From assembly GCF_030814135.1 (NCBI RefSeq), contig NZ_JAUSUQ010000004.1:124001-188000 (forward strand): a DNA stretch of 64,000 nucleotides, in the 5' to 3' direction. Shown here piece by piece: positions 1 to 55,775 of the stretch (positions within the stretch are counted from its first letter, which is position 1; each line of letters starts with the position of its first letter). Source of the stretch: Caldalkalibacillus uzonensis (GTDB lineage: Bacteria > Bacillota > Bacilli > Caldalkalibacillales > Caldalkalibacillaceae). Made by a program: the position numbers and the translations under genes. The notes under the pieces were generated by a model. That model did not search any database. It was given only the letters and a program-made list of their open reading frames with translations, and was not told the origin of the DNA.

Positions 1-76
1 TATTATGATAGGTGGTGTATTAGTTTCGGTAGTAAACTTTCTAAGTGTATATTATTTTTGTTTGGAGTGGTACTTC

Positions 77-1282
77 ATGATTCAAAAACCACAAACAGGA
101 GACCAAGAATATGTCAGGCGCTTAAACCGTTCCATTGTTTTGAATCATATCAAAGAATACGGGCCGATCTCCAGAGCTGAAATTGCCAAAGATACCTCCT
201 TGAATAAAGCAACCGTTTCTTCCCTTGTAGAACAACTGATTAATGAAAATTTGGTCAAAGAGATTGGGGCGGGCCATTCCTCCGGTGGAAGACGTCCTGT
301 TTTGCTTCTCTTTAATGCTGAAGCCGGCTCTGTTATCGGTGTCGACCTGGGCGTCAATTATATCCTGGTTGTCTTAACAAATTTGAGTTCCCACATTAAA
401 TGGTCCAAAAAAGTCTTCCTGTCTCCTGCAGAGGATTTTCAATCCGTACTGGATAAACTGTACAAGCTTATTGGGGAAGCGATTGAACACGCCCCCCAAA
501 CGCCCCACGGCATACTGGGGATTGGGGTAGGCATACCGGCGATTACGGATCATCAACGCGGCATTGTCCTTTTTGCCCCTAATCTGCAGTGGAAAGATGT
601 GAACTTAAAGGATCTGCTGGAACAGCGTTTTTCCCTTCCCGTTGTGATTGACAACGAGGCCAATATGGGTGCTTTAGGAGAAAAAATGTTTGGCAACGGT
701 GCCGGTTACCAACACATTGCCTATATCAGCGTTGGCATCGGCATTGGCGTGGGCCTGGTCTTGGATAACCAAGTGTACCGGGGAGCCAATGGGTTTGCCG
801 GTGAAATGGGGCACATGATCATAGAGAAAAATGGGTTAAAATGTTCATGTGGTAACCGTGGCTGTTGGGAAATGTATGCATCTGAAAAATCGCTGTATAT
901 GCGCATGGAAGAGATCCAATTTCCGTTATCTTCCACAGATCCTCTGCAAAGCATTTTACAAGCAGCTGAAACCGGCCATCACCAAGTGATTGCCAGTTTA
1001 CACGACATTGGTGAGTATCTTGGCATTGGCATCTCCAATATTATTAATGCCTTTAATCCTGATTGCGTCATTATTGGCAATACACTGTCCCAAGCCGACC
1101 GCTGGATCATTGCCCCTATTGAAAAAGTGATTAACAGCAGAACACTGCCCTTTTCCAGACAACACGTCCAGGTTAAACTGTCCAACCTGGGTGACAAAGC
1201 ATGTGTGATCGGTGCAGTGTCCAGTATCTTAACCCAACACTTTTCCTTCAATGGCACCCAAATGGCCGTCCCTAACCCCTGA
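77..1282 (+). CDS. xylR: Xylose-operon repressor XylR (ROK family)
   Basis: This 401-residue protein has an N-terminal winged helix-turn-helix (about residues 15-70, with ISRAEIAKDTSLNKATVSSL) followed by a ROK sugar-kinase-like domain. The motif SSGGRRPV and the zinc-binding cluster CSCGNRGCWE (about 255-264) match Bacillus XylR closely. The family represses xylose and xyloside genes and is released by xylose. The open frame runs 24 codons further upstream, but ATG at 77 is preferred because the homologous part begins just after it and it lacks the odd hydrophobic leader. It is convergent with the decayed uxuA/uxuB region. A XylR-type palindrome lies at 19158-19197 before a CUT1 binding-protein gene. 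Assignment as XylR rather than another ROK repressor rests on family resemblance plus that operator. Confidence 0.9.
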   Translation: MIQKPQTGDQEYVRRLNRSIVLNHIKEYGPISRAEIAKDTSLNKATVSSLVEQLINENLVKEIGAGHSSGGRRPVLLLFNAEAGSVIGVDLGVNYILVVLTNLSSHIKWSKKVFLSPAEDFQSVLDKLYKLIGEAIEHAPQTPHGILGIGVGIPAITDHQRGIVLFAPNLQWKDVNLKDLLEQRFSLPVVIDNEANMGALGEKMFGNGAGYQHIAYISVGIGIGVGLVLDNQVYRGANGFAGEMGHMIIEKNGLKCSCGNRGCWEMYASEKSLYMRMEEIQFPLSSTDPLQSILQAAETGHHQVIASLHDIGEYLGIGISNIINAFNPDCVIIGNTLSQADRWIIAPIEKVINSRTLPFSRQHVQVKLSNLGDKACVIGAVSSILTQHFSFNGTQMAVPNP

Positions 1283-1878: not shown

Positions 1879-3141
1879 TCACGATGATGGCAACTGGACA
1901 AAGTCAACAAAATTCCGGCAGAGCAACTTGTCGATGTCACGCCTGATATCGGCAGCGGTCTGCTGCCATCCCCGCTCAAGCAAGGCCTGATAGTTTTTTA
2001 CCAACATGCCTCTCAACACTTGCTTGCTGTGCGCCCATTTATACAGCAACTGCTCAAAAATGCGGCAATCTGAGTGCTGAAAGATAAACCGGTTGCCTAA
2101 TTGGTCAAACCTCATCTGTGAAATTTCCTCGATTAGCTGAGGGGTGTTTAAAAACCACCAGCAGCCAAACACCATCATGTTTCTAAATTTTTGAGCCAGC
2201 GTCACTAACTCGTACTGATTTTCTCTGGATAACATGGTGACTAGGAATTTTTGCTGCGGATAGTTCCGGCACAAATGTTCTAAAGAAGTTAACTCTGCGT
2301 GTCCGGCCATATCACCAGCCAGCTGCAAGTCTGGATTAACCCGTCTTTTGGTGCCGATCATCAGGGCCAGCGGTAAACGGTATTCAGCACAAACCGGTAA
2401 TAAACAATGATCTAGCAATGCTGTGCTGACACTGTCCTGCGGATAGTTAAAATAATAGGGCAATGACACCGCCACGTAGACGGGATTCATGACGGCAATC
2501 CAATCCCTGATAAAACGTTGCACTTGTTCCACGGTTTGCGTGGTTAGCTTTTCCATGACGTCATAGCCCATGCTTTGCAGCAGCGGGTAAGTGTCGGACC
2601 AGTGATTGAGCAAGGGATCTAACCGCAAGGCAGGCAAAAAGCGTTGATCCGGATGCTGCTTTTTCCACAACTTCCTTTCCACAGGATCAAAGGGATCATT
2701 GGTCATCACAATTCGGTCTATATTGGCCATGTCCATAATCCGGTCAATGTATTTGTGAACATCGCGTTGCTGGTTAAACCAGCGGCGAATCTGATTCAAA
2801 TCTTTGCTGACTGGCACGTCCAACATCTGCAAAATGGTTAACAGGCCTTGCCCCGCTTCACTGACCGGGCTGTTGTGGACAAACAATGTTTCCCACACAT
2901 ATTCGGCCCGTTCCTTTTCAGACAAGCGCCAAAAGGTTTCATAAGGCAGATCAGACCACAGAAAGGTTTCCGAAACCAAATAATGATAATTTAATAATTG
3001 ATCAATGCCTGTTAAACATAACGATTCAAACGAAGGTGGAAACAAATGTGTATGCATGTCAATGATTTTCGTTTGATTTAAGGCATGATCCACAATCTTT
3101 TCTATCTCGTTGGGCTGGGTAATGGGTTGTTCAGTTTGCAT
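1879..3141 (-). CDS. uxaC: Uronate (glucuronate/galacturonate) isomerase, Bacillus BH0493-like
   Basis: The 420-residue protein is an amidohydrolase-fold uronate isomerase. It has the N-terminal MHTHLF metal motif (His30, His32), [29 protein letters not shown] and QHSDCR near residue 355. It is shorter than the roughly 470-residue E. coli enzyme and resembles the divergent Bacillus halodurans BH0493 type. The family interconverts D-glucuronate/D-fructuronate or D-galacturonate/D-tagaturonate in the cytoplasm. ATG at 3141 is chosen over the upstream in-frame start because AAAGGTGG precedes it and the extra 15 codons overlap the permease gene. The extreme C-terminus (LPSS) appears to run into the uxuA deletion junction. 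It is the last intact gene of a transcript that begins with the PotABCD-like importer. Confidence 0.85.
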
Positions 3142-3175
3142 GAAAACCACCTTTCTTTCGTTTTTAATGGCTGTG

Positions 3176-4051
3176 TTATTGTCCAAGCCTTCTCTGGGTT
3201 AATGAGGAAAGCCATAAACTGATAAAGGCGAAAAGTAAAAGAGGGAACATTAACGTTAAGGCGAGCGCATCCAGCATAGGTGGTGGTTGATTACCAGCAC
3301 TGCTTAATACGCTAAAGACCATAACCGGCAATGTCTGTGTTTTAGGTCCTGAAATCAACAGAATGATGATAAACGTACTGAACATGCGAATAAATATATT
3401 AATCGCCGCTGCGGTTATCCCTGGAATAAGTTGAGGAAAGACGATACGTGTAAACATACGCCATTTGTTCGCCCCTAAGGATTGGGCTGCCCACTCCAGG
3501 CGTGGATCTAACGATTCAATAAACGGAATCAGAATGAACACGGAGAATGGAATACCAATAATGAGATTGACAATAATCAGACCAGGGATGGTTTCCGCTA
3601 ACCCTATTGAATAAAAAATAGAGGCGATCGGAATAGCATAAACGAGTTCTGGAAGCGTAAACGGCAATTGATAAAAACCAATCAAGGCATCTTTAAATGG
3701 AAATTGTTTGCGAGCCAGCACATAAGCGCTGGGAATACTCAAAATTAATGAAATAATTGTGGCTACTCCTACAATTTTCAGTGTGATCTTATAATAAGAA
3801 CCGATATCATAAGCAACCCATGCCCGTTTCATCCATTCGAACGTATACCCCTCGGGCAAAAATGTCCCAAACCATTCCGTGCCAAAAGCACTGAAAAAAA
3901 CGGATAATGTCATGCCTAAAATGATCATGATAAAACTAATGATTAATAGCCAAAAGGGCAGAGCTTTTAAATAATTGAATAACCTTTTTCTATATTTATG
4001 TTTATGACTTTGTAAAACACTCTCCACCTCGTTGGATATTGAAGTTTGCAT
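3176..4051 (-). CDS. ABC transporter permease, PotC/CysW-type
   Basis: A roughly 291-residue inner-membrane permease with about six hydrophobic segments. The cytoplasmic EAA-type loop reads LEWAAQSLGANKWRMFTRIV, with the conserved G and the following FPQLIPG. It belongs to the group of spermidine/putrescine, iron and thiamine importers rather than the CUT1 sugar permeases. ATG 4051 has GGAGGGAC just upstream and lies 17 bases after the end of the partner permease. The longer frame to 4135 would overlap that gene. It forms one operon with the second permease, the ATPase and a binding protein, and with uxaC downstream. The substrate cannot be read from sequence; a uronate or oligo-uronide is suggested only by context. 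Confidence 0.85.
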   Translation of the reverse strand: MQTSISNEVESVLQSHKHKYRKRLFNYLKALPFWLLIISFIMIILGMTLSVFFSAFGTEWFGTFLPEGYTFEWMKRAWVAYDIGSYYKITLKIVGVATIISLILSIPSAYVLARKQFPFKDALIGFYQLPFTLPELVYAIPIASIFYSIGLAETIPGLIIVNLIIGIPFSVFILIPFIESLDPRLEWAAQSLGANKWRMFTRIVFPQLIPGITAAAINIFIRMFSTFIIILLISGPKTQTLPVMVFSVLSSAGNQPPPMLDALALTLMFPLLLFAFISLWLSSLTQRRLGQ

Positions 4052-7865: not shown

Positions 7866-8549
7866 TTACCGTTTAAAATAATCGGGATACTTCTCCATTA
7901 ATGCTTGGATATCGAAAACATGCATTTTTAAATGCTCGCTCATCACTTTTTCTGCTTGTTGGGGATCTTTCGCTTCTATGGCCTGTACAATCTGTTCGTG
8001 TTGGGTGAGGATGGGCCCCCAGTTTTCGTTTGACGCTAAACTTAACAGCCGGCTCCGGTTAAAATGAATCATAAAATCTTGAATAGCCAGCCAAATACGC
8101 TGTTTGTTGCAACCGGTGAAAATCAGTTGGTGAAACTGCTGGTCATATTCAAACAGCTGCTTATATGCCTTGCTCTGCACACAATTTTTTTGTGCTTCCA
8201 CATTATTCTTCAATTGAAGCAGGTACTCATCCGGGAAGCTTTCAGCAGCTAATTTGACCGTCGCGATTTCCAGATGCTTGCGCATAAATCTGGCTTCCTC
8301 GACGTGTTCCGGATCAATGAGGGACACAAATGACCCTCGTTGTGGATAAACCTCGATTAACTTTTCCTGTGACAATTTTAAAAAGGCTTCCCGCACCGGG
8401 GTCCGGCTGACATTTAACCGCCCGGCAATCGTATTTTCCGTCACTTTTTGGCCTGGAAGCAAAGCCAGAGTCATAATTTCATCTTTAATCGTTTGATACA
8501 CACTTGAACGGACAGAAACATGGGCAGGAAAGTTGGCATTTATGTTCAT
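7866..8549 (-). CDS. GntR-family transcriptional regulator, FCD (FadR) subfamily
   Basis: A 227-residue regulator with an N-terminal winged helix (about 10-75: SVYQTIKDEIMTLALLPGQK and VSRTPVREAFLKLSQ). It is followed by an all-helical FCD ligand domain with metal-ligand-type residues in FDQQFHQLI-like YDQQFHQLIF, and a final His in the EHLKMHVFD helix. FCD regulators commonly sense sugar acids (UxuR, ExuR, GntR types). ATG 8549 has AAGGAG at a good distance. The frame reaches 8618, but that start has no ribosome site and overlaps the GH67 gene. Given GH67 upstream and uxaC downstream, glucuronate or a related uronate is a reasonable but unproven effector. Confidence 0.88.
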   Translation of the reverse strand: MNINANFPAHVSVRSSVYQTIKDEIMTLALLPGQKVTENTIAGRLNVSRTPVREAFLKLSQEKLIEVYPQRGSFVSLIDPEHVEEARFMRKHLEIATVKLAAESFPDEYLLQLKNNVEAQKNCVQSKAYKQLFEYDQQFHQLIFTGCNKQRIWLAIQDFMIHFNRSRLLSLASNENWGPILTQHEQIVQAIEAKDPQQAEKVMSEHLKMHVFDIQALMEKYPDYFKR

Positions 8550-8592
8550 TGGCCTGCAACTCCTTAGTCGTGTCAGGTTTTTATACCACTTG

Positions 8593-10662
8593 CTAGTAGA
8601 TGGTTCTGTTTTTTTCATCAGGTATTCCCGATTTGCGATAGAAATACGTATTAATCACATCTCTCCATTCTTTGACATGCTCAAGCTGTTCCATCAACCG
8701 GCTTAAGACGTGGTCAAAGGTCTGTTGGTTGAATTTCCCCTCTAGCCTCTTCCACTTTTCAATTAATCCTTTCACCTGTTCGACGCCTTCAAAGTGGGTA
8801 TTGTAGATATGTTGTATCACCGTTTCTCCAGACTTTAAGCGGTGCGTATACGGAACATGGTGGAAAAATAATAAATATTCATCCGGACAAGTGTCCAGCG
8901 ATTCATACATTTCCCTGTTGGGAGAAAAATATTGGGCTGTGTAGCCGGTTCCTGTTTTCATTGTCCGGTCCACGCCAATCCCAAAACAGTCGGCATAATG
9001 GTAGGTTCCCCAGCGTGAATACTCGTACCCATCAACGTTGGGCCCATAGTGGTGGCCCGGGTTGACCATCCAGCCCACGCCCAGCGGGGCCGTATAATTT
9101 TCATAAATCCGCCAGGAGGAGAGCAGCATATGAGCAATGGTCTCAATGACTTGTGGATCAGGGCCAAAGGTTAAGCGGATCCATTCTTCGGTGATTTGTT
9201 CAGCTGACAAATCGGGATTCCATGTTAATCTGCCGAAACCATATAAATTGGCTTGGGCCAGGGTATGCCCAGTCCAGTTTTCATCGCTCCCCACATTAGC
9301 CACACCCGCGATGCCGCTATGTTTGAACCCATACAAAGAACCGTCAACGATTCTTTTAACTGTTGAACCTTCACCCTTAGCATAGGTATCAAAATCAAGC
9401 ACCTCTTTCCACTGTGGGACGAGATAGCATAAATGACGTTGTTGTCCCGTATATTCCTGCGTAATTTGAAACTCCATCATTTGATTGGTTTGTTCCATCG
9501 CACCAAACAGCGGTGAAACCGGTTCGCGGACTTGAAAGTCCATCGGGCCATTTTTGATTTGCAAGATGACGTTATCCAAAAACTTGCCGTCCAGCGGCTG
9601 GAAATGATCATAAGCGGCCTTGGCCCGGTCTGTCTGACGGTCCCGCCAGTCTTGCATGCAGTTATAGACAAAACAGCGCCAAATGACAATGCCGCCAAAG
9701 GGATGCAAAGCTTCAGCCAGCATATTGGCTCCGTCTACATGGGTGCGGTTATAAGTAAACGGACCGGGTCGGTGTTCAGAGTCTGCTTTGACCAAAAATC
9801 CGCCAAAATCAGGGATGTATTGATAAATGTCCTTGGCTCTTTCCTTCCACCACTGACGCACTGCAGAATCCAGCGGATCTGCCGTATCCAGATCCCCCAG
9901 CTCCACCGGGCTGGCAAAATTGATACTTAAAAAGATCTGGATCCCATAGCTGCGAAAGATGCCGGCGATCTTGGCCACATCGGGCAAAAATGCCGGGGTG
10001 ATCAGCTTCGTTTCCGTTTCGTGCACATTCACGTTGTTGATCGCAATGCTGTTGATTCCCACAGAAGCCAAGAGGCGTGCATAGTCGCGAATACGTTGCT
10101 CATTGGTTGTGATCCGGCCATGCTCGTAAAAGATGGAGCTGCCAGCGTAACCGCGTTCGACGCTGCCATCCATGTTGTCCCAATGATTCAGCATTCGCAG
10201 CGGGTTGCGGGGAGTCTCACGGATATCCAGCTGTTCCAAGGGCTCATTCATTTGCATTAATCTTAACAGGTGAAAGACACCGTACAACAAAGCCCTGTCA
10301 GTGTGTCCGGTGATCACGATACGGCCGCCCTCTGCCTGGGCCACCGTCCGTATACAATAGGCCTCATCCTTCATCTGATAGAGGTCTTCCACAAGCTTTG
10401 GACCTAAACATTCCCGGACCAGCGGTTGGTTCGGTTTGCCAATCACCGTCAAATAGTTTTGTGGGGAAGAGCCCTCCACAAAATCGACAGGCATTTGCAG
10501 CATGGCCCCAATACCCCGGTTGAGTTCATCCCTGATTGATTGCAGAAGGGGAGAAGGATGACCTCCCGGTAATGAGACGCAACGCAGCCATTGCTGATAA
10601 GATTGTCTTAAGCTTTGGTTTGTCATTGGACGGTACTGCAACCAACAATGGTAATGATTCAA
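8593..10662 (-). CDS. aguA: Alpha-glucuronidase, GH67
   Basis: A 689-residue intracellular enzyme that removes 4-O-methyl-D-glucuronic acid from the non-reducing end of aldouronic acids from xylan. No signal peptide is visible. Family hallmarks include [39 protein letters not shown] (about 290-308, with an acid-residue Glu), [18 protein letters not shown] with the conserved Asp and Glu, and [20 protein letters not shown]. The length fits the Geobacillus AguA type. The start is TTG at 10662 with AGGAGGTG eight bases upstream; no ATG is suitably placed. It follows the M24-like gene by 23 bases and precedes the GntR gene, so they probably share a transcript. Confidence 0.95.
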
Positions 10663-10685: not shown

Positions 10686-11801
10686 TCATAGGACAAAAAT
10701 ATCTGGCCGCTTCAGCATTGTGCCATTTTGGGTTTGAACGGTAAGCTGAGGCCAACCGCTGCGGGATACAGTGAGGATTTCGGTTTTATCTTTTCTCACT
10801 ATAATCGTATCCTCTGACTTGGTGCCCTGTATGGACGGGTTCCAGGCAAAAGCCTGGTTCTCCACAATATGGAAATCCACAGAGGGTGTCAAGATATAAT
10901 CCCTGTTTTGATAGCCAATAGCCCCGCCTTGATGATGCAGTTTCCATTCGCCATCATAACCCACTGCGGCATATTGCTTTTTGATGAACTCAAACATGTC
11001 CTTGGTGTGCACACCAACCCGAGAAGCGGCCATTAATTCTGCATCAATCTGCACTGTCCGCTTAAACTTCTCGCTCATCTCTTGGGACGGTTGGCCAACA
11101 TGAATGAGGCGGGTTAAGGCCACAATGAGCCCCTTATAGGCGACACAAGAAACGACCATACATTTCTTTTCAAACCGATGATGTGTTGGCACAGGATGTC
11201 TGTACCGGTCCAAACGTTCGTCACAAGCCACCAGAGTCACGGTGGGAAGGAAGCCTTGGGCCAGGTATCTCTCATTAAGCCCTGCCGCTATTTCCAGTTC
11301 CGTCTGCCCAGGCTTAATATGCATACAGTATTGTTCCATGACTGCTGCTGCCGTTTCTCCTAAATAACGGTACCTTTCCATTTCAACTTCTGTTAAGGAG
11401 AAACGGAGACGGGACAATTTTTCTCCAGCATAGTGCATTTGCCCCTCCATTGGCACGTCAGTGATCACGTGCCCGGGATCAACCAGCTTACGGATGGCGA
11501 CACTGATATCCTCATACCAAGGGTACTCCACCACCTCAATCGGTAGTGAGGCTACTTCTTCGTCTACGATTCTCGGTTTTTCAATGGTATTAGTCACCAG
11601 ATAGAATTGGTCCTGCGTCACCAGCAGTCCGCATTCTCCCCGTTCACTGTTATACGGAATGCCATTATGGCCCCCGCTCGTCAGCCAGGCAAAATTGTCT
11701 TGCCGTTGGCAGAAAACAGCGTCAAATTTTGTTTCTCCCAAAAACTGGCGGACTCTGGCCAGCTTTATTTCCATATCCATGTATCTTTCAGTTGCACTCA
11801 T
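10686..11801 (-). CDS. M24-fold (creatinase/aminopeptidase P-like) protein lacking usual metal ligands
   Basis: A 371-residue two-domain protein: a creatinase N-terminal domain (about 10-140, NFAWLTSGGHNGI) and a pita-bread M24 domain. In peptidases of this fold the region after the conserved YRHP has two metal-binding Asp residues; here it reads MVVSCVAYKGLIVALTR, with Ser and Ala at those places. The EPG ligand is replaced in FAWNPSIQGTKSEDT; the last Glu (SED) and a His (KLHHQGGAIGY) remain. So ordinary dinuclear metallopeptidase activity is unlikely, though creatinase shows the fold can work without metals. A paralogue with the same changes lies at 50021-51103. It sits between GH67 and an oxidoreductase. 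Its function is unknown; annotation as Xaa-Pro peptidase would be misleading. Confidence 0.75.
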   Translation of the reverse strand: MSATERYMDMEIKLARVRQFLGETKFDAVFCQRQDNFAWLTSGGHNGIPYNSERGECGLLVTQDQFYLVTNTIEKPRIVDEEVASLPIEVVEYPWYEDISVAIRKLVDPGHVITDVPMEGQMHYAGEKLSRLRFSLTEVEMERYRYLGETAAAVMEQYCMHIKPGQTELEIAAGLNERYLAQGFLPTVTLVACDERLDRYRHPVPTHHRFEKKCMVVSCVAYKGLIVALTRLIHVGQPSQEMSEKFKRTVQIDAELMAASRVGVHTKDMFEFIKKQYAAVGYDGEWKLHHQGGAIGYQNRDYILTPSVDFHIVENQAFAWNPSIQGTKSEDTIIVRKDKTEILTVSRSGWPQLTVQTQNGTMLKRPDIFVL

Positions 11802-11813
11802 CTTGCACGCTCC

Positions 11814-12908
11814 TCAATCGTTAGGTGTTTCTATGCGCAAAGCTTGTTGCTGTGCTTTTATGCTCAGTTCCGCTGCCTTAAAGGCATGTTCCTGTGTCAT
11901 GGCATTTTCCGTTCCATTTAAGCAATCCAATATGAGTTGGCCAAAGAAGGGAAAGCCCACTTGTCCCGACGGGTTAAAATATTTTTCTCCCTCATGATCG
12001 ACCAAGTAGACATGATCGGACGATTTGTCACGGGCAATATCAATGTATTTCCGAACCTCAATATAACCATCTGTGCCTAAGATCATGACGCGTCCGTCTC
12101 CCCAGGCGCCTAATCCGTCTGGCGTGAACCAATCGACACGAAAGTAAAATGTAGCCCCGTTGTCTGCCACCAGCGTAGCATCGCCAAAATCCTCAAATTT
12201 TGGATACTGTTTAAAATGATAATTGGCCACTTTGCTATGCAACACTTTGGCATCCTTGGCGCCAACGTAATATAAAAATTGCTCGATCTGGTGACTGCCG
12301 ATGTCACATAAGATGCCCCCGTAATAAGCGGGATCAAAAAACCAGGCAGGCCGGCTGTTCACATTAGCCCGGTGAGGGCCTGTGCCTATGACTTGCACAA
12401 CCCTGCCAATCGCACCGGATTTAATCAGCTCTCCGGCAAAGATGGCGCTTTCAACATGCAGCCGTTCACTGTAGTAGATCGCCCATTTCAAACCTGTTTC
12501 CGCCGTCTTTTTTCTGGCTTTGTCCAGTTGGTCCAGCCGAGTGAAAGCAGGTTTGTCGGCGAAATAGTGTTTGCCATGATCAAGCACCCTCAGCCCCAGG
12601 TCGCACCGGTCTACAGGAATGCAAGCAGAAGCAACCAGTTTGATATCCGGGTTTTGGAGAATTTCCTCTTCCGAAGAGGCTACCTTAACACCTGGATACC
12701 TAGCAGTAAATTGTTTCACTTTCTCGGGGTCTGAATCGTAAACAGCTGCTAAAGTAGCTCCCGCTTCCATCAGGCCGTTGCACATACCATAAATGTGACC
12801 ATGGTCTAAACCTAGCGCCGCAAAAGGAAACTCACCGTGACTCACAACCGCATTTGACTTACCCTGGGGTGCATAATTCATGCCATCGCTTTTATTCACA
12901 TTCATCAT
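11814..12908 (-). CDS. Gfo/Idh/MocA family oxidoreductase
   Basis: A 364-residue NAD(P)-dependent dehydrogenase. The N-terminal Rossmann part reads FAALGLDHGHIYGMCNGL, with His-rich residues after the glycine region, and YDSDPEKVKQF. The catalytic-type motif is YFADKPAFTRLD (a DKP variant of EKP), and GGILCDIGSHQIEQFLYYVG matches the conserved Asp/His helix. These enzymes oxidise or reduce sugars, inositols or sugar acids; the substrate is not readable. It is clearly different from the two paralogues upstream. AAAGG precedes the ATG; a second ATG follows directly. It lies 12 bases before the M24-like gene, so the two are probably co-translated and may act on the same compound. Confidence 0.85.
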   Translation of the reverse strand: MMNVNKSDGMNYAPQGKSNAVVSHGEFPFAALGLDHGHIYGMCNGLMEAGATLAAVYDSDPEKVKQFTARYPGVKVASSEEEILQNPDIKLVASACIPVDRCDLGLRVLDHGKHYFADKPAFTRLDQLDKARKKTAETGLKWAIYYSERLHVESAIFAGELIKSGAIGRVVQVIGTGPHRANVNSRPAWFFDPAYYGGILCDIGSHQIEQFLYYVGAKDAKVLHSKVANYHFKQYPKFEDFGDATLVADNGATFYFRVDWFTPDGLGAWGDGRVMILGTDGYIEVRKYIDIARDKSSDHVYLVDHEGEKYFNPSGQVGFPFFGQLILDCLNGTENAMTQEHAFKAAELSIKAQQQALRIETPND

Positions 12909-12982
12909 TCATTCACGCCTTTCTTGCTAAACGGTGTACAAAACTATAAAGATTAGATCAATTCCGACACCTATCTGCTGCC

Positions 12983-14137
12983 TCACTCATAATTGCCGCC
13001 TGTTGTAATCTCCTCAACAGTAAAATTATCGATGCTTTTTTCCTTTGTATAAAAGTATTTCGCGTTTTTCAAAATGCCTTCTCTCGTATAAAAAGGACTG
13101 TCTGGCCTTAACGGCAATGGGACAGCCTGACCCAAACTGGCCGATTGATATATCGCTGTAATCAGCTCGAGGGTCTGCCGGCCTTGGTGTCCATCAACAA
13201 GCACATCCTTTTTCCCCTCTAAAGCTTGCAGAACATCATCAATTTGCCCTGTATGTCCCTCGTATTGAATATCGGGCAGCGCAGCATAGGTTTGCTGGAT
13301 TCTAGCTTCTAATTCGTGATCCGTTTCCGGAAAGCCATTTTCTTTTGCCTTGGAGGCAATAACCTTCCAAGGGACAGATACGCGAGCGTACTTGCCCTGA
13401 AAAACCAGCTGTTGTTCTTCCCCGTGATGGATGACCGAGCTTGTGATTTGGGCTAAACCACCATGGGGATAATGGCAGATGGCAATGGATATATCTTCAA
13501 CCTCTGCGTTCTGATGAGCCGCATTACCCATCACGGCCACAATTTCGGAAGGCATGCCATTCATCCACAACAACATATCGATATGGTGCACGGCATGGTT
13601 TAAAGTACAACCTCCTCCTTCTTTTTCCCAGGTCCCCCTCCACCATAAATCATAGTAACTGTATCCTCTCCACCACAACGAATCGACTTGGGTATGTACA
13701 ATCGGACCTATCAAGTTCGTCTCAAGCACACGTTTCAATTTCATGACTGGGTTTCTGAACCGATTTTGTGAAATGACAGATAAGATTTTCTGATTTTTTC
13801 CAGCGGCTCCAATCATAGCATCACACTCTTGCAAAGAAGAAGCCATCGGTTTTTCAACCAGCACATGTTTTCCTGCATTTAAAAAATCAATGGCAATTTG
13901 AGCGTGGGTATACGGGGGGGTGCAGACCGAGACCAGATCAATATCAGTGCGGTGTAACATGTCAGTATAATCAGCGTAAATCTCTGCATCAAGGTGATAG
14001 TGGTTTGCTTTTTGCCGTGCTTTGTCCGGATAAATGTCACAAAGCGCTACAATACGGCACTTTTCAGGAAACTGCAAATACCCCTCAATGTGGGCAGGTG
14101 AAATGGCGCCTGTCCCGATAATGGCCACATTTAACAT
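12983..14137 (-). CDS. Gfo/Idh/MocA family oxidoreductase (paralogue A)
   Basis: A 384-residue dehydrogenase with Rossmann motif AIIGTGAISPAHIEGYLQ, Asp at the end of the second strand (ALCDIYPDKA), EKPMASSLQECDAM carrying the usual catalytic-region Lys, and GGGCTLNHAVHHIDMLLWM. The substrate is unknown; sugar or uronic-acid derivatives fit the context. It is a close tandem paralogue of the gene at 14720-15817, with long identical stretches such as IDLVSVCTPPYTHAQIAIDF differing at single positions. A third, broken partial copy lies at 7605-7778. GGGAGG precedes the ATG. Upstream at 14192-14204 is a palindrome-like ACTTGTATACTAG, a candidate operator. The C-terminal 25 residues extend beyond the paralogue. 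Confidence 0.88.
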   Translation of the reverse strand: MLNVAIIGTGAISPAHIEGYLQFPEKCRIVALCDIYPDKARQKANHYHLDAEIYADYTDMLHRTDIDLVSVCTPPYTHAQIAIDFLNAGKHVLVEKPMASSLQECDAMIGAAGKNQKILSVISQNRFRNPVMKLKRVLETNLIGPIVHTQVDSLWWRGYSYYDLWWRGTWEKEGGGCTLNHAVHHIDMLLWMNGMPSEIVAVMGNAAHQNAEVEDISIAICHYPHGGLAQITSSVIHHGEEQQLVFQGKYARVSVPWKVIASKAKENGFPETDHELEARIQQTYAALPDIQYEGHTGQIDDVLQALEGKKDVLVDGHQGRQTLELITAIYQSASLGQAVPLPLRPDSPFYTREGILKNAKYFYTKEKSIDNFTVEEITTGGNYE

Positions 14138-14191
14138 TGATCATGTTCCTCCCTTACAAAAGAGACTGTCAATATTCTGGCATCCTAACAC

Positions 14192-14204
14192 ACTTGTATA
14201 CTAG
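14192..14204. promoter_or_regulatory. Candidate GntR/FCD operator (ACTTGTATACTAG)
   Basis: The best of three related TTGTATA elements. It is placed about 55 bases upstream of the paralogue A start, in the 128-base gap after the VOC gene. Its presence suggests a separate promoter for the 14137-to-8593 transcript. The regulator assignment is inferred from position and motif type. Confidence 0.45.
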
Positions 14205-14265
14205 CATTTTTTGTTTGTAGATGTCAATCATTTTAGAATTTTTCGTTTGTTGAAAGAGTTAAAAA

Positions 14266-14706
14266 TTAAAGGTTTAAATCGCTTTGGTCAACATTGAATT
14301 CAATAAGATTACCATCAGGGTCTGTGCAGAAGATTTGAGCAAACCCGCTTTTGCTTCGCGGTTTTTCTAAAAGCGGAACACCTTTCTGTTTCAAGTATTC
14401 GAGTGTTTTATAGTAGTCTTTTACCCTGATAGCAAAATGACCCTCTTTGGTTTGGATATCTGGGTTGGTCCGCAACGTTTCCGATTGAGGATAGACGATA
14501 AGGTGCAGTTGTGTATCCCCTATCTGGTACCATGCGCCAGGAAAATCAAAATCAGGCCGTTTAATTTCAGTAAAACCTAAAACAGTACCATAAAAATGTT
14601 TGGCCTTATTTAAATCGGTTACAGACAAGCTGACATGATGGAAACGCTCCACTTCTATCACACTTAACCACTCCAATCTCTTTTGTTCGTTAAAAGGATA
14701 CAACAT
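14266..14706 (-). CDS. VOC (glyoxalase/bleomycin-resistance fold) protein
   Basis: A small 146-residue protein with two paired beta-alpha-beta-beta-beta units. FHHVSLSVTDLNKAKHFYGT opens the first unit, HFAIRVKDYYKTLEYLKQ the second, and FCTDPDGNLIEFN closes with a metal-ligand-type Glu. The first unit carries the usual metal His in FHHVSL. VOC proteins include isomerases, epimerases, lyases and dioxygenases. It lies 13 bases after the oxidoreductase stop and is translationally close to it, so a role on the same substrate is likely. ATG 14706 has AGAGGAT; GTG at 14661 with GGAGTGG is an equally possible start and gives a protein shorter by 15 residues. Confidence 0.8.
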   Translation of the reverse strand: MLYPFNEQKRLEWLSVIEVERFHHVSLSVTDLNKAKHFYGTVLGFTEIKRPDFDFPGAWYQIGDTQLHLIVYPQSETLRTNPDIQTKEGHFAIRVKDYYKTLEYLKQKGVPLLEKPRSKSGFAQIFCTDPDGNLIEFNVDQSDLNL

Positions 14707-14719
14707 GGGCCATCCTCTA

Positions 14720-15817
14720 TTACTTGGTATTGAAGTACTTGGCCTGAGCTAAAATACCTTCCCGTGTATAAAAGGGACTGTCAGCTGACAACGGCAATTT
14801 CACTGGCCGCCCTGTGCTAGCTGCTTGATAAATAGCTGTGATCATCTCAAGGGTCCGGCGGCCCTGACAGCCGTTAACCAATACATCTTTTTGCCCGTCA
14901 ACAGCCAGCAAGACGTCATAGATTTGTCCAATATGTCCTTCATATTGAAGATCCGGCAGTTCATTGTATGTTTGTCGAATTTTTCTTTCCAGCTCAAAAT
15001 CTCTTGCGGGAAAACCGTTTTCTCTCGCTTTGTAAGCACATAGTTGCCAAGGAATCGACACCCGGGCATATTGGCCTTGAAAAACCAATTGTTGTTCTTC
15101 ACCATGATGGACGACTGAACTCGTGATTTGGGCCAGGGATCCATCCGGATAAAGGCAGATGGCAATGGAAATGTCTTCGACTTCCGCATTATGATGCGCG
15201 ACGTTACTCATCACTGCAACAACTTCAGATGGCATCCCCTTTAACCATAAAAACAGATCAATATGATGAACGGCATGGTTTAAAGTGCAACCGCCACCTT
15301 CCTTTTCCCACGTTCCTCGCCACCATACATCATAGTAACTGGATCCCCTCCACCATAACGAATCAACCTGTGCATGAACAACAGGCCCTATCAAATTGGC
15401 CTCCAACACCCCTTTGACTTTCATCACAGATTGTCTAAACCGATTCTGGGAAATAACAGACAACACCTTCTTGTTTCGAAAAGCAGCTTCATTCATTGCA
15501 TCGCATTCTGCCAGGGATGAGGCCATTGGCTTTTCCACCAGTACATGTTTGCCGGCATTTAAAAAGTCAATTGCAATTTGAGCATGTGTATAAGGAGGCG
15601 TACAGATTGACACCAAATCAATGTCTGGCCGCTCCACTAACTTTTTGTAATTATCGTAAATATCTACATGAAGATGGTATTGTTGAGCTCGTTGTCGCGC
15701 TTTATCAGGGTAAACATCACATAAAGCTGCCAGCCGGCAGTGCTCGGGAAATTGGAGATAGGCTTCAATATGGGGGAGAGAGATCCCGCCTGAGCCAATA
15801 ATGGCTACCTTTATCAC
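14720..15817 (-). CDS. Gfo/Idh/MocA family oxidoreductase (paralogue B)
   Basis: A 365-residue NAD(P)-dependent dehydrogenase with KVAIIGSGGISLPHIEAYLQ, ALCDVYPDKARQRA, LVEKPMASSLAECDAM and EGGGCTLNHAVHHIDLFLWL. It is very similar along its full length to paralogue A downstream. The start is placed at GTG 15817, preceded by AAGGGTGA and matching the paralogue's N-terminus; the frame to ATG 15847 adds ten residues not seen in paralogue A. A candidate operator half-matching TTGTATA lies at 15857-15869. Two near-duplicate enzymes kept side by side suggest either a dosage effect or divergence to two epimeric substrates; sequence alone does not decide. Confidence 0.87.
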   Translation of the reverse strand: MIKVAIIGSGGISLPHIEAYLQFPEHCRLAALCDVYPDKARQRAQQYHLHVDIYDNYKKLVERPDIDLVSICTPPYTHAQIAIDFLNAGKHVLVEKPMASSLAECDAMNEAAFRNKKVLSVISQNRFRQSVMKVKGVLEANLIGPVVHAQVDSLWWRGSSYYDVWWRGTWEKEGGGCTLNHAVHHIDLFLWLKGMPSEVVAVMSNVAHHNAEVEDISIAICLYPDGSLAQITSSVVHHGEEQQLVFQGQYARVSIPWQLCAYKARENGFPARDFELERKIRQTYNELPDLQYEGHIGQIYDVLLAVDGQKDVLVNGCQGRRTLEMITAIYQAASTGRPVKLPLSADSPFYTREGILAQAKYFNTK

Positions 15818-15856
15818 ATAAGTCACCCTTTGCAATAATATGAACAAAGCTTGAAG

Positions 15857-15940: not shown

Positions 15941-16804
15941 CTAGCCTTTGACAGATCCTGCCGTAATCCCTTCAACAATGCGGTCGCTGAGGATCAAGTA
16001 GGCAATCAAAATGGGCAGGATACTGATGACAAGTGTTGCTCCAATTGCTCCCCAGTCCGTTGTATATTGGCCTACAAAATTTTGAATACCAACAGTCAAT
16101 GTTTTATACTCATCCGAGCTGATAAACGTGTTGACGAAAACAAATTCATTCCAATTAAAAATCATATTCACAATGGCCGCCGTTGCCATGGCTGGGGTGG
16201 TAATCGGCAAAATGATGCGAAAGAACAGGCCATGAACCGAACATCCATCCATAATGGCCGCTTCTTCCAGTTCCCGTGGTATGGTGTAGTAGAACCCTAA
16301 CAAAATCATGATGGTGAGCGGCAAATTAAAAGCCGTGTAAGTCAGGATTATGGATAAGGGATGATTAATTAAATTGATTTTTAAAAACAAGCTAAACAGG
16401 GGAATAAGTGCGGAATGCACTGGAATCATCAAGCCCACCATGAATAAGCCGAGGACTGGCTTTTTCAATTTCCATTTCATACGTGTGATGGCAAAGGTGG
16501 CCAAACTGGCCAGGAAAACGGTTAACACAACAGAGACCACTGTAATCCAAACACTGTTGAAAAAATAAACGCCAATATTCCCTTCTGTCCATACTTTGAC
16601 ATAATTCTCCCATTTCGGATCTTCCGGCAGGGCAAAGGGGGGCAAATGGAAAACTTCCTGATTATTCTTTAAGGAAAAAAAGAATAGCCAGACTAAAGGG
16701 AGAACCTGAACAACTGCTACGAAGACCAACATCACATATAAAAGACCGAGCCCCAACCGTTTCCAGTACAGCTGAGTCCGCGAAGATGCCATTTCCTGTT
16801 TCAA
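15941..16804 (-). CDS. CUT1 sugar ABC permease, MalG-like
   Basis: A 287-residue permease with six predicted membrane segments and the EAA loop LEEAAIMDGCSVHGLFFRII about 90 residues from the C-terminus, followed by LPITTPAMAT. The C-terminus AGSVKG is typical of MalG-type subunits. The start is TTG at 16804 with GGAGGGG six bases upstream. It lies 18 bases after the MalF-like gene. With that gene and the binding protein it forms an importer for oligosaccharides, here probably xylo- or aldouronic oligosaccharides because of the upstream XylR-type operator and the GH67 gene. No ATPase is encoded with it. Confidence 0.9.
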   Translation of the reverse strand: MKQEMASSRTQLYWKRLGLGLLYVMLVFVAVVQVLPLVWLFFFSLKNNQEVFHLPPFALPEDPKWENYVKVWTEGNIGVYFFNSVWITVVSVVLTVFLASLATFAITRMKWKLKKPVLGLFMVGLMIPVHSALIPLFSLFLKINLINHPLSIILTYTAFNLPLTIMILLGFYYTIPRELEEAAIMDGCSVHGLFFRIILPITTPAMATAAIVNMIFNWNEFVFVNTFISSDEYKTLTVGIQNFVGQYTTDWGAIGATLVISILPILIAYLILSDRIVEGITAGSVKG

Positions 16805-16822
16805 CGCTTTCCCCTCCCATAT

Positions 16823-17692
16823 TTACGAATACTGGGTTTCTTCATCGGATGCGGATAATTTCCGAATCAGCCAAGTCAGTACCAGGCACATCAACAATAA
16901 GAAGAAACCAATCGCACTTCCATATCCAAAATCCAAACGGTTAAACGCTTGGTTGTACATATAAGAGGCTACAACCTCACTGGCTCCGTTTGGTCCTCCT
17001 CCTGTCATCACATAAATCAAGTCAAAATATTTCAGTGACCCAATAACGGCTAAAATCACGGTCACTTTAATTACGCCGGCAATCAAAGGAATTTTTATTT
17101 TGAGAGCAATTTGCAACGGGTTGGCCCCATCGATCCGGGCTGCTTCTATCAGAGAGGAAGGAATATTTTTCAATGCAGCATAGTAAATCAAAATGTAAAA
17201 TCCGGCATATTGCCATAAGATTGGAATAAAAATGGCATACAAGACCAGTGAAGGATTAGCCAGCCACTCTGGCGTATTGTCTATGCCCAGAGAAGCAAGA
17301 AAACGATTAAGTACTCCATTGGTTGGATGATAGATCTTCAGCCACAGCTGGGCAATGGCCACCGAAGACAACAGCATGGGAATTAAATATATCTTTCTCA
17401 ACAGATTTGCACCCTTAATTTGTCCGGCAAGAACGAGGGCAACAAGCAGGTATCCAATCAAGCTCAGCACTGAAAATAAAGCCAGCAAAAAGGAATGCCG
17501 TACACTCGTCCAAAACATGGGATCCTTAATTAATTTGGCATAATTGGTTAAACCAATAAACTCCATGCTACCAATGCCATTCCACTTCATTAACCCGTAA
17601 TAGCCTGTCATCACAATGGGGATATAGACAAGGGCCAAAATGAGTGTCAGTGCTGGCAGGACATATATGGCAATTATTTTTTTGTTTGACAT
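16823..17692 (-). CDS. CUT1 sugar ABC permease, MalF-like
   Basis: A 289-residue permease beginning MSNKKIIAIYVLPALTLILA, with six membrane segments and the EAA loop LIEAARIDGANPLQIALKIK followed by IPLIAGVIKV. YVMTGGGPNGASEVV near residue 225 is a CUT1 MalF hallmark. ATG 17692 has GGAGAAAG just upstream; an in-frame ATG four codons earlier (17704) is a weaker alternative. It is separated from the binding-protein gene by a strong hairpin. It pairs with the MalG-like subunit downstream. Confidence 0.9.
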   Translation of the reverse strand: MSNKKIIAIYVLPALTLILALVYIPIVMTGYYGLMKWNGIGSMEFIGLTNYAKLIKDPMFWTSVRHSFLLALFSVLSLIGYLLVALVLAGQIKGANLLRKIYLIPMLLSSVAIAQLWLKIYHPTNGVLNRFLASLGIDNTPEWLANPSLVLYAIFIPILWQYAGFYILIYYAALKNIPSSLIEAARIDGANPLQIALKIKIPLIAGVIKVTVILAVIGSLKYFDLIYVMTGGGPNGASEVVASYMYNQAFNRLDFGYGSAIGFFLLLMCLVLTWLIRKLSASDEETQYS

Positions 17693-17736
17693 CACTTTCT
17701 CCATCGCAGTTCAGCTCCCTATCTGGTGGTGCAGTG

Positions 17737-17770
17737 AAAAAGGACATATGTAACAGCATATGTCCTTTTT
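17737..17770 (-). terminator. Intercistronic hairpin after the binding-protein gene
   Basis: A perfect 14-bp stem (AAAAAGGACATATG and its complement) around a six-base loop, ending in a T-run. It lies 20 bases after the binding-protein stop and before the permease genes. It is shaped like a terminator or attenuator and would lower permease expression relative to the binding protein. Confidence 0.85.
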
Positions 17771-17789
17771 CGGTTGGGCCTATTGCATG

Positions 17790-19124
17790 TTATTCCTCTT
17801 GGGCTAACGCTTCTTCATGCTGTTTGGCATATTCTTCGGGTGTCACTTCCAGCCCAAACAACGATTGAATCAGATTCAAATGGGTATCGGCTACCCCGGG
17901 ACTCATTTGCACGTCGGCAAACAAAGTGATATTTTCTGCCTGATTCAGCTCATTCAAAACATCAATATAAAGCTGGGGCAAATCCATTTGGGACGTGTCT
18001 ACTTTTGTCGCAGGGATGACACCTGCCTCTGTTACTGACTGTTCTCCCCATTTTTCAACAAAAAATCTCACAAACTTTTTGGCTTCTTCCTTCACCTGGG
18101 AATTCTCTGCAACGAATAAGCCGACACCAGGCCCACCAACCCAGCTGTTCACGTTCCCATTTCCACCTTCTACCAAGGGGAATTTTAAGAACCCGACACT
18201 ATCCCTGAATGAATGGGGGACAGATTCATTTGTCGTATAGTCAGGCAGCTCCCACGTTCCCATTAAGTACATCGCTGCTTGTTCATTGATAAACTCCGAT
18301 TTGGCTTCATCATTTGCTAACCCGTTAAACCCGCGCACAAAGGCATTCATTTGAACCAACTCTTGAACTTTTTCGGCTGCTTCAACCAGAGCTGGATCTT
18401 CAAAAGATCCGCTGCGGTTGATGGCTTTATTCAACACTTCAGGTCCACCGATGCGATCAGCCAGATACATATACCATAAAGATCCTGTCCAACGGTCCCT
18501 GTTCCCCAATGCGACAGGGGCTATCCCATTTTCAGCAAGCGTCTGAACAACATGTTTGAAATCCTCGTAAGTTTCTGGCTCCTCCAGTCCATACTGGTCA
18601 AAAATGGCCTTATTATAATATAAAGGTACAATGTTAAGTTCCAAAGGCAAGGCATAGGTATGCTCACCAACAGCATAAGCTTCTGTCGTCCCAGGAACAA
18701 ACATATCCTTTAACCCTTCGGCCAGGATATCATCGAGCGGCGCAAACAGATTTCCCTCAACGTACGGCTTCAGAAATCCGGCTGCCCATGTCATGCCTAT
18801 ATCCGGTAACTGGTTGGAAGCAGATAGTACTTTTAATTTATCTTTGTACTGTTCATTTTCCAGTACTTCCTGGACAATTGTCACATGGGGGTTTTCTTGT
18901 TGGTACTGGTCAATAATATCATTAACGATCATATTATGTTGTTTTGAACTCCCTTGCGGCCATAAATGCATAAAATGAATGGTGATACTTCCGTCTGAAC
19001 CAGACCCTTCTTCGGTAGCGCTTCCATTTTCAACAGCATTTTCACTATTACCCGAACACCCCGCAAGTAACGCCACTAAAACGCTCAGAAACAAGACCAG
19101 CTTTGACCAACGGATCATCAACAT
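17790..19124 (-). CDS. CUT1 extracellular solute-binding lipoprotein
   Basis: A 444-residue family 1 binding protein. The signal peptide MLMIRWSKLVLFLSVLVALL ends in lipobox LLAGC, followed by a Ser/Gly/Glu linker. The mature part shows ITIHFMHLWPQG, LPDIGMTWAAGFLKPYVEGN and EQAAMYLMGTWELPDY, usual for oligosaccharide-binding proteins. AAGGAGGG precedes the ATG. It is the promoter-proximal gene of the importer, with a XylR-type palindrome 34-73 bases upstream. This and the neighbouring GH67 suggest xylo-oligosaccharides or aldouronic acids as ligand; that is inference. Confidence 0.9.
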   Translation of the reverse strand: MLMIRWSKLVLFLSVLVALLAGCSGNSENAVENGSATEEGSGSDGSITIHFMHLWPQGSSKQHNMIVNDIIDQYQQENPHVTIVQEVLENEQYKDKLKVLSASNQLPDIGMTWAAGFLKPYVEGNLFAPLDDILAEGLKDMFVPGTTEAYAVGEHTYALPLELNIVPLYYNKAIFDQYGLEEPETYEDFKHVVQTLAENGIAPVALGNRDRWTGSLWYMYLADRIGGPEVLNKAINRSGSFEDPALVEAAEKVQELVQMNAFVRGFNGLANDEAKSEFINEQAAMYLMGTWELPDYTTNESVPHSFRDSVGFLKFPLVEGGNGNVNSWVGGPGVGLFVAENSQVKEEAKKFVRFFVEKWGEQSVTEAGVIPATKVDTSQMDLPQLYIDVLNELNQAENITLFADVQMSPGVADTHLNLIQSLFGLEVTPEEYAKQHEEALAQEE

Positions 19125-47811: not shown

Positions 47812-49827
47812 TTAGTTTTTGTCCTCTTTCAACACCACAACATCAATCCCCTTTACAGTTAACTTCACGCCATGCAAACGTTCTCCGCTAAGTACATTTT
47901 GATAATTCCTGTCCTTGGGCAGTGTCAGCTGAACATCGTGTCCATTATGATTGACAATAATTAGATATTCTTCATTTTCAGTATATCTTCGCTGAACTTC
48001 CACTTTTGCAGGTACCTCCAGAGGAGGAGTAATATGGTGTTCAGCCAAGACTTTTTCCAGAAGCTGACCTACAAAACGCGATTCAGGATGGGTGCCAATG
48101 TAAACGCTTTTACCTTGACCAAAGTGGTGAACGGTCACTGCCGGATGACCTGCATACCAATCTTCCCCATACACTGCCAGTGCTTGGGCACCTTCCAATC
48201 GGATCATATCAGCCCAAGTCGTGCACTCAAACGTCTCACCGCCGACCTGAAGCAAGTTGGATTGTCCTTCTGCAATCGGCACAAATTCCTCCACACAAAG
48301 GCCCAATATATCGCGCAGAAGAGCCGGATATCCTCCTAGGTGAACTTTATCATTTTCATCCACAATGCCACTGAAAAAGGACATCAACAGCGTGCCCCCA
48401 TTCTTAACAAATCGGTGAAGATTCTCGTCTTCTCTCTCTTTGATCATATACAGCAGGGGCGCAATCACCACTTTGTACTTTGATAAATCATCTCCAGGAC
48501 GAGCAAAGTCAACAGCAATGTTCCGTTTGTACAATTCACGGTAGTAATGTTCGACAATCGCAATATAACTGAGCTTATTATGGGGTTTCGATGCCAGTTC
48601 AACGGCCCACCAGTTTTCCCAGTCAAAGAGAATTGCCACCTCTGCCTTGATCCGTGCTCCCACCAGGCCATCCAATTGGCTCAGTTCGTGCCCCAGTTCC
48701 TTAACTTCCCGGTATACTCTGCTGTGTTCATCTCCAGAATGGGACACCATAGCCCCGTGGAATTTTTCTGCTCCCGCCCGGCTCTGACGCCACTGGAAAA
48801 ACATAATGCCGTCTGCGCCACGCCCGATGGTAGCATAACTCCACAGACGCATCACACCCGGTGGTTTGGGTACGTTAATGTCCCGCCAATTGACATGTGA
48901 AGTCACCTGTTCCATGAGCAGGAAAGGTTGGCCTTGACGCAAACTGCGCATCAAGTCATTCATCATCGCATGGTTAACAGGCAACCCTTCCCGTGGATCC
49001 GGATAGGAATCCCAGGTGACAATATCCACTTCTTCTGCCCATTGAAAGTAATTCAATGGTTTAAATGAGGCCATAAAGTTGGTGGAAATAGGAATATCGG
49101 GTGTTAGTTCACGCAAGATTTCTTTTTCGGCCAAAAACAGATTGAAGATCGAGTCATTCATAAACCGGTAATAATCCAGTTCCTGGGACGGGTTTACAAA
49201 AGTGGGCGTTTTCCTGGGCGGGTTGATTTCATCCCAGTCGTTATACCGCTGTCCCCAGAAATTGGTACCCCAGCGTTCATTTAATTCATCAATTGTGTGG
49301 TACCGTTTTTTTAGCCATTTTCTAAATGCCTGGGCACAGTTTTCACAATAGCACCTGGAAACATGACAAGCATACTCGTTATTGACATGCCACATTTTCA
49401 GCGCGGGATGATCCTTATAGTGCTCCGCTATGGCCCGCACCAGTTTCTTGATATGCTTAATGAGGTGGGGATGGTTAGGACAGTAGTGCTGCCTGCTCCC
49501 AAACGAAAGACGGGTTCCATTCTCATCAACAGGCAATGAATCGGGATATATCCTGACAAACCAGGCAGGAGTTGAAGCAGTAGCTGTAGACAAATTGACA
49601 TGAACCCCATGGTCATACAAGATGTTGATCACTTTATCCAGCCATTCAAAATCAAAGATTCCTGCTTGAGGTTCAATTTTTGCCCAGCTAAAAATCCCTA
49701 CTGAGACCAGGTTCACACCTGCTTTTTGCATCAACTGCGCATCTTCATACCAAACCTCTTCTGGCCACTGTTCCGGATTGTAATCGCCTCCATAACAGAT
49801 TGAAGGCAACACATTGATATTCTTCAT
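47812..49827 (-). CDS. Beta-galactosidase, GH42
   Basis: A 671-residue enzyme of the thermophile/soil-type GH42 family. CYGGDYNPEQWPEEVWYEDA opens the barrel. The acid/base Glu is in MWHVNNEYACHVSRCYCENC (about 147), next to the Cys cluster that with an earlier Cys (HYCPNHP) binds structural zinc. The nucleophile Glu is in PFLLMEQVTSHVNW (about 303). A trimerisation-type domain and a small C-terminal beta domain follow. No signal peptide is present. GGGGG precedes the ATG. GH42 enzymes often prefer galactan-derived oligosaccharides, which would complement LacZ. An AT-rich element at 49881-49907 upstream recurs before other galactoside genes. Confidence 0.94.
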   Translation of the reverse strand: MKNINVLPSICYGGDYNPEQWPEEVWYEDAQLMQKAGVNLVSVGIFSWAKIEPQAGIFDFEWLDKVINILYDHGVHVNLSTATASTPAWFVRIYPDSLPVDENGTRLSFGSRQHYCPNHPHLIKHIKKLVRAIAEHYKDHPALKMWHVNNEYACHVSRCYCENCAQAFRKWLKKRYHTIDELNERWGTNFWGQRYNDWDEINPPRKTPTFVNPSQELDYYRFMNDSIFNLFLAEKEILRELTPDIPISTNFMASFKPLNYFQWAEEVDIVTWDSYPDPREGLPVNHAMMNDLMRSLRQGQPFLLMEQVTSHVNWRDINVPKPPGVMRLWSYATIGRGADGIMFFQWRQSRAGAEKFHGAMVSHSGDEHSRVYREVKELGHELSQLDGLVGARIKAEVAILFDWENWWAVELASKPHNKLSYIAIVEHYYRELYKRNIAVDFARPGDDLSKYKVVIAPLLYMIKEREDENLHRFVKNGGTLLMSFFSGIVDENDKVHLGGYPALLRDILGLCVEEFVPIAEGQSNLLQVGGETFECTTWADMIRLEGAQALAVYGEDWYAGHPAVTVHHFGQGKSVYIGTHPESRFVGQLLEKVLAEHHITPPLEVPAKVEVQRRYTENEEYLIIVNHNGHDVQLTLPKDRNYQNVLSGERLHGVKLTVKGIDVVVLKEDKN

Positions 49828-51103: not shown

Positions 51104-51118
51104 CCCAATTTCCACTCC

Positions 51119-52339: not shown

Positions 52340-52472
52340 CACCAACACCCAGTCCTTTTAAATTAATTTAATAAACAAATTATAACAGATGATTTTACAT
52401 CTGGTCTATTATCCCCTGGCCAAATGGGACATGTCAGTAAACTGGGTGCCTCTCGAAAAAAAGACTGCAGCA

Positions 52473-55650: not shown

Positions 55651-55775
55651 CACGGCACCCCTTTCAGTCTAGTTATTTAATTTAATTAATTAATTTATGA
55701 TTTTATCTTACCGTAAAAATAGACAAATAGCAATCATGAATGAGGGAATAATAAATAGTTAATCCCCTGGCGGTC

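Follow-up and report, generated by a model that had tools for sequence, protein, structure and literature searches.

The question raised by this locus is what a protein with the architecture of a peptidase is doing in an operon for alpha-glucuronidase. The window, by which we mean the whole 64,000-nucleotide stretch of Caldalkalibacillus uzonensis DNA that was analysed, carries an ATG-started open reading frame with a Shine-Dalgarno-like GAGGAG sequence immediately upstream, and its product matches Pfam Peptidase_M24 (E 2.8e-13) and Creatinase_N (E 4e-5). The sequence-only reading had placed this gene between GH67 and an oxidoreductase, which is where it lies, all three on one strand and separated by gaps of 23 nt and 12 nt. 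The genes in and around the operon are as follows, with the basis of each assignment in brackets.

5-1282, plus strand: XylR-like repressor of the ROK type, oriented divergently to xylA-xylB-GH3, which lie immediately outside the left edge of the window (neighbour calls)
7866-8618, minus strand: GntR/FCD regulator, the final gene of the GH67 run (Pfam)
8593-10662, minus strand: GH67 alpha-glucuronidase, downstream of the focal gene across the 23-nt gap (Pfam)
10686-11801, minus strand: focal metal-less M24-fold protein of 371 aa, a candidate D-xylose-type aldose mutarotase (ORF, Pfam, AF2 model, fold, tree)
11814-12908, minus strand: Gfo/Idh oxidoreductase, upstream of the focal gene across the 12-nt gap (Pfam)
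12983-14137, minus strand: Gfo/Idh oxidoreductase (Pfam)
14266-14706, minus strand: VOC/glyoxalase-family protein (Pfam)
14720-15847, minus strand: Gfo/Idh oxidoreductase (Pfam)
15941-19124, minus strand: sugar ABC importer, comprising two permeases and a solute-binding protein (Pfam)

The xylA and xylB genes and a GH3 glycosidase gene, immediately left of the window, belong to the same super-locus; the end of xylA lies 10.9 kb from the focal gene, which is itself within the GH67 operon. The three Gfo/Idh oxidoreductases and the VOC protein (11814-15847) possibly make up a pathway of dehydrogenases acting on 4-O-methylglucuronate or on some other sugar. An open reading frame of 435 aa adjoining ABC permease genes (1879-3186, minus strand) gave no match in Pfam (1e-6) or NCBIfam (1e-10) scans.

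We used an AF2 model of the focal protein, built from 40 family members (pLDDT 96.1, pTM 0.92), to place it among known folds. Prolidase, aminopeptidase P, creatinase, EutD and DddP were recovered from the PDB over ~340 residues at Z 31-33, with a Foldseek E-value of 5e-21, and Spt16 was also among the structural matches. The pita-bread catalytic domain and the creatinase-type N-domain are thus both present, by Pfam, model and fold matches alike, bearing out over the full length the two-domain creatinase/aminopeptidase P layout that had been read from the sequence.

The metal site is another matter. We read the ligand positions from alignments to prolidases and canonical M24 homologues, and only one of the five that make up the M24 set (D, D, H, E, E) proved to be present; the other four are gone throughout the family, with non-ligand residues at their positions. 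The position of the first Asp falls in the Asp-free stretch MVVSCVAY (215-222), its exact partner in the prolidase alignment being uncertain by ~2 residues; the second is A228, which is A, S or N in all aligned family members but one; the metal His is replaced by G293, an invariant Gly; and the first Glu corresponds to W320/N321, both invariant. Only the second Glu, E330, is retained. H202 aligns with the His of the peptidase PHG motif, a second-shell residue, and the His of the KLHHQGG motif is not the metal His. The proton-shuttle residues of E. coli aminopeptidase P are His243 and His361 (PMC5774706); judged by its position seven residues past the lost metal His, R300 falls at the second of these, and H202 and R300 would be the equivalents of His243 and His361.

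Loss of the metal site could in principle reflect the decay of a peptidase gene. We gathered homologues by genome searches and a contig scan, finding more than 50 at 28-62% identity, and analysed 85 sequences, which span ten phyla or more: Bacillota, Armatimonadota (including Zipacnadia), Verrucomicrobiota, Planctomycetota, Omnitrophota, Spirochaetota, Bacteroidota, Ignavibacteriota, Fidelibacterota, Acidobacteriota and Actinomycetota, together with one archaeal MAG. Across all 85, G43, R77, G224, R231, Y277, G292, G293, R300, W320 and N321 are invariant, and W39, E74, E168, R196, H202, H290, K328, E330 and T332 nearly so (H202 is replaced by Q or N in two). The signature of the family can be written as W39, R77, R196, H202, H290, QGG, R300, AWNP and KxEDT. 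With more than 20 residues invariant or nearly so over so diverse a set, a decayed peptidase is ruled out, and because these residues are strictly conserved the loss of the metal site is neither chance nor gene decay. The metal-less M24-like proteins are, judged by their conservation, a functional family in their own right. One decaying-looking copy was seen: a C-terminal fragment (L010 and L077, genome G005; 43% identity over ~110 residues) beside a ROK gene, in a genome that has GalM.

Another way to view the family is through the company that its genes keep. We surveyed the gene neighbourhoods, calling neighbouring genes and then labelling them against reference proteins bearing Pfam/NCBIfam identities. 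A galK/galT neighbourhood, usually in the order galT-galK-galE-M24L-ROK, was found for 29 of the 85 sequences; eight lay beside genes for D-galacturonate (tagaturonate reductase UxaB, altronate dehydratase UxaA or KduI), five beside xylA/xylB for D-xylose, and four beside TctABC, while about a third of loci were uninformative (mreB/SMC, Tct transporters and others). The xylose isomerase and xylulokinase labels exceed the NCBIfam equivalog cut-offs in both sets scored (725 over 533 and 582 over 380 bits in one, 579 over 447 and 593 over 380 bits in the second). The family is found in operons of aldoses whose first enzyme is anomer-specific (galactose, xylose and galacturonate), and the step that these operons share is the entry of a free reducing aldose.

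Other contexts are of a different kind. The spirochaete members (L046, L047, L050, L053) always precede TctC-TctB-like-TctA genes, often with a Gfo/Idh gene. In Zipacnadia MAGs (L018-L021, L036, L041, L054) the gene lies between a divergent mreB and a gene of ~1213 aa, and sugar genes are absent nearby. A divergent Microbacterium branch of ~30% identity (L058, L060-L063, L065) has LacI regulators as neighbours, along with genes for Gfo/Idh proteins or permeases.

The window itself holds a second family member, passed over in the sequence-only reading and 39% identical to the focal protein, so that this genome (100% complete) has two copies, one in each sugar region. The paralogue sits between GH42 and ROK-galE-galK-galT, in a gal operon that also has a GH4 gene:

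47812-49827, minus strand: GH42 beta-galactosidase adjoining the paralogue (neighbour calls)
50021-51115, minus strand: paralogue of 364 aa, a candidate galactose mutarotase (search, neighbours, tree)
51119-52348, minus strand: ROK regulator adjoining the paralogue (neighbour calls)
52473-55653, minus strand: galE (52473-53459), galK (53444-54673) and galT (54670-55653) (neighbour calls)

In a quick PMSF tree of the family sequences, the focal protein forms one group with four xylA-operon members (SH-aLRT 99), and the paralogue falls in a 25-row clade with support of 100, of which 22 are gal. A separate gal group (support 100) comprises Fidelibacterota, Bacteroidota and Ignavibacteriota, and the galacturonate members form two groups that stand apart. 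Operon context changes 14 times on this tree, compared with 44.9 times when labels are shuffled, i.e. it is strongly clustered by sugar. D-xylose would be the most likely sugar of the focal copy, which lies in a glucuronoxylan locus.

If the family acts on free aldoses, its occurrence might be expected to bear some relationship to that of the standard aldose 1-epimerase, GalM. We scored 300 Bacilli genomes for galK, GalM and the metal-less M24 family. Among those with galK and no GalM, the family was present in 19 of 23 and missing in four, whereas among those with both galK and GalM it was present in nine of 136 and missing in 127. The Fisher p for this contrast is 2.6e-14, a value that ignores kinship among the 300 Bacilli; an exact test with taxonomic families as strata gives p 0.0033, and shared ancestry is still not fully removed from it. 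Seventeen of the 19 carriers have the gene within the galK cluster. The window's genome conforms to this pattern, PF01263 (GalM) not being found in it despite the presence of galK, galT, galE, xylA and xylB.

The xylose loci show the same complementarity at the level of gene order. Two loci whose GH52s are 76% identical read SBP-perm-perm-GH52-u216-GalM-xylA-xylB (L133; GalM matching PF01263 at 2e-48) and, with the same transporter genes, SBP-perm-perm-GH52-u210-ROK-M24L-xylA (L016), so that the slot before xylA is held by GalM in one and by the metal-less M24 protein in the other. GalM was missing from G000 and from the Bacilli with the family gene directly beside xylA (G003, G004, G204). By coordinates, more than ten other Bacilli have GalM no further than ~4 kb from xylA, which shows that xylose operons commonly include a mutarotase; in Geobacillus, the XylR regulon has been reported to contain a xylose mutarotase, XylM (PMC12285236).

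The complementarity is not complete. Besides the nine galK-positive Bacilli with both and the four with neither, GalM and the family stand side by side in Fidelibacterota gal clusters (L044, L049), and the L016 genome has a GalM ~15 kb from the family member of its xylose locus; the existence of genomes that carry both weakens the mutarotase idea. The uninformative third of loci, the two sequences without H202 and the distance of the focal gene from xylA also count against it. Lipoprotein-like signals (LFVGC, IIVGC, FLAGC) occur in the gal clade members of Fidelibacterota, Bacteroidota and Ignavibacteriota, and, speculatively, one exported and one cytosolic enzyme could account for the coexistence in Fidelibacterota. 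We also looked for other mutarotases hidden in the 24 GalM-less genomes. DUF4432 (PF14486) was rejected, as it is above cut-off in only one, the window's own (C3:156431-157315, 54 bits). RbsD/FucU (PF05025) is common as a separate gene (17 of 24), and was set aside as a ribose-type enzyme, an argument that falls short of full exclusion. The focal protein has neither PF01263 nor PF05025, M24 and Creatinase_N being the only matches in its Pfam scan.

Taking these observations together, we lean towards the view that the family comprises previously undescribed, metal-free aldose mutarotases with a pita-bread fold, functional analogues of GalM that are not homologous to it, with D-xylose the most likely sugar of the focal copy. 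Mutarotation matters because galactokinase and xylose isomerase take alpha anomers while retaining glycosidases yield beta anomers. The restriction of galactokinase to alpha-D-galactose has been shown for GALK1 (PMC8628924), and mutarotases accelerate the interconversion of anomers for enzymes that accept only one of them, with a His/Glu pair as the acid and base of GalM (PMC5902678). Since the GalM mechanism needs such a pair, the invariant His and Glu of the family fit the mutarotase reading. We envisage that the reducing sugar would bind in the pocket that holds the metal in prolidase, where H202 and E330 would provide general acid-base catalysis at O5 and O1, assisted by H290, R196, R300 and R77; the ring would open, the aldehyde rotate and the ring reclose, giving fast equilibration of the alpha and beta anomers. 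The paralogue would serve galactose within its gal operon, and the focal protein most likely D-xylose from glucuronoxylan, with (4-O-methyl)glucuronate as second choice. The gal-clade forms of Fidelibacterota, Bacteroidota and Ignavibacteriota may represent mutarotases that are exported and stand next to an SSF symporter, in keeping with their lipoprotein-like signals.

Comparison with characterised relatives helps to delimit this proposal. GalM, XylM and the sulfoquinovose mutarotase YihR share with the family the gal/xyl operon slots and a complementary occurrence, as well as the available His/Glu pair, but the GalM fold is a beta-sandwich, whereas the focal protein has the pita-bread fold and no PF01263 match. 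Prolidase (Xaa-Pro dipeptidase, M24B; PDB 1wy2, 3q6d, 5cde) has the same whole-length two-domain fold (Z 31-33), and the focal protein retains the His of its second shell (H202) and the final metal-binding Glu (E330); it lacks the Asp, Asp, His and Glu ligands, however, has R300 for the H361-type shuttle His, and belongs to sugar operons rather than to peptide metabolism. Creatinase (PDB 1chm, 7yto; Z 31) has a metal-free active site that employs the same conserved His, and the suggestion of a metal-free enzyme like creatinase has fared well, in so far as a shared fold and absent ligands can support it; the two are only ~14% identical, though, the focal family has other invariant motifs (QGG, AWNP, KxEDT), and its neighbours are sugar genes, with none from the creatine pathway. 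Ectoine hydrolase EutD/DoeA and DMSP lyase DddP (Z ~31) are likewise M24 folds recruited for small-molecule chemistry, but act on ectoine or DMSP and have no link with aldose operons.

How else might the locus be explained? The same type of enzyme could serve, in the focal copy, the beta anomer of (4-O-methyl-)D-glucuronate released by GH67, feeding the Gfo/Idh dehydrogenases or a uronate isomerase. That the focal gene is closely coupled to those for GH67 and the Gfo/Idh proteins, and that other clades occur in galacturonate operons, speaks for this; the focal protein groups, however, with xylA-operon members (99) and with neither galacturonate clade, and xylA/xylB lie in the same super-locus, leaving it an unlikely substrate, if the foremost of the alternatives. 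As a primary reading, a uronate-specific role deduced from GH67 alone was rejected, gal and xyl contexts being dominant and the focal clade that of xylose. Thus, of the earlier suggestion of a uronate- or glycan-derived small molecule, the small sugar-type molecule survives, but not the derivation of the substrate from the GH67/uronate neighbourhood, the family being tied to free aldoses; amide or ester derivatives of uronates, proposed as substrates, find no counterpart in any context, the contexts pointing to mutarotation.

Somewhat less likely again is another reaction on a sugar derivative, such as the hydrolysis of glycosylamines or of a sugar lactone, or some other C-N cleavage of the creatinase kind, which would clean up side products of sugar catabolism. 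Creatinase, a C-N hydrolase, is indeed the closest metal-free enzyme of the fold (Z 31), and Gfo/Idh neighbours occur in the spirochaete and L135 loci as well as the focal one, yet such a hydrolase would leave unexplained both the presence of the family in galK-positive, GalM-less genomes and the GalM slot swap. That a ROK gene adjoins the family member in most gal and xyl loci might instead indicate a non-catalytic sugar-binding sensor partnering the repressor, and metal-less M24 folds can serve as binding modules, as the Spt16 matches illustrate. Against this, regulators vary among loci (ROK, LacI, DeoR), the Fidelibacterota/Bacteroidota forms resemble exported lipoproteins and the invariant ionisable residues suggest catalysis, and we regard a sensor as improbable. 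A genuine Xaa-Pro peptidase with rearranged ligands, for which the Pfam M24 match and the prolidase-like fold could be cited, is the least credible of all, given the family-wide replacement at four of five ligand positions and sugar operons throughout; the earlier judgement that this is no Xaa-Pro peptidase therefore probably holds.

The wider proposition, that a metallopeptidase fold deprived of its metal has become a structurally unrelated answer to sugar mutarotation and has spread through many phyla as galactose, xylose and galacturonate paralogues, replacing GalM in many Bacilli and acting as an exported lipoprotein in Fidelibacterota, Bacteroidota and Ignavibacteriota, is one that we hold to be evenly balanced. 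In the open-access literature we found nothing tying M24-fold proteins to mutarotation or gal operons; the fold is already known, and it is the mutarotase role that would be new. If the favoured explanation is correct, a missing step of the galactose and xylose pathways would be filled in many bacteria without a recognisable mutarotase, a metallopeptidase fold would have found new use as a sugar isomerase that needs no metal, and the annotation of a family that sequence searches place under M24 peptidases would be corrected. The two paralogues in one genome provide a built-in comparison of specificity, and the family might also help to identify the sugar carried by the spirochaete Tct transporter.
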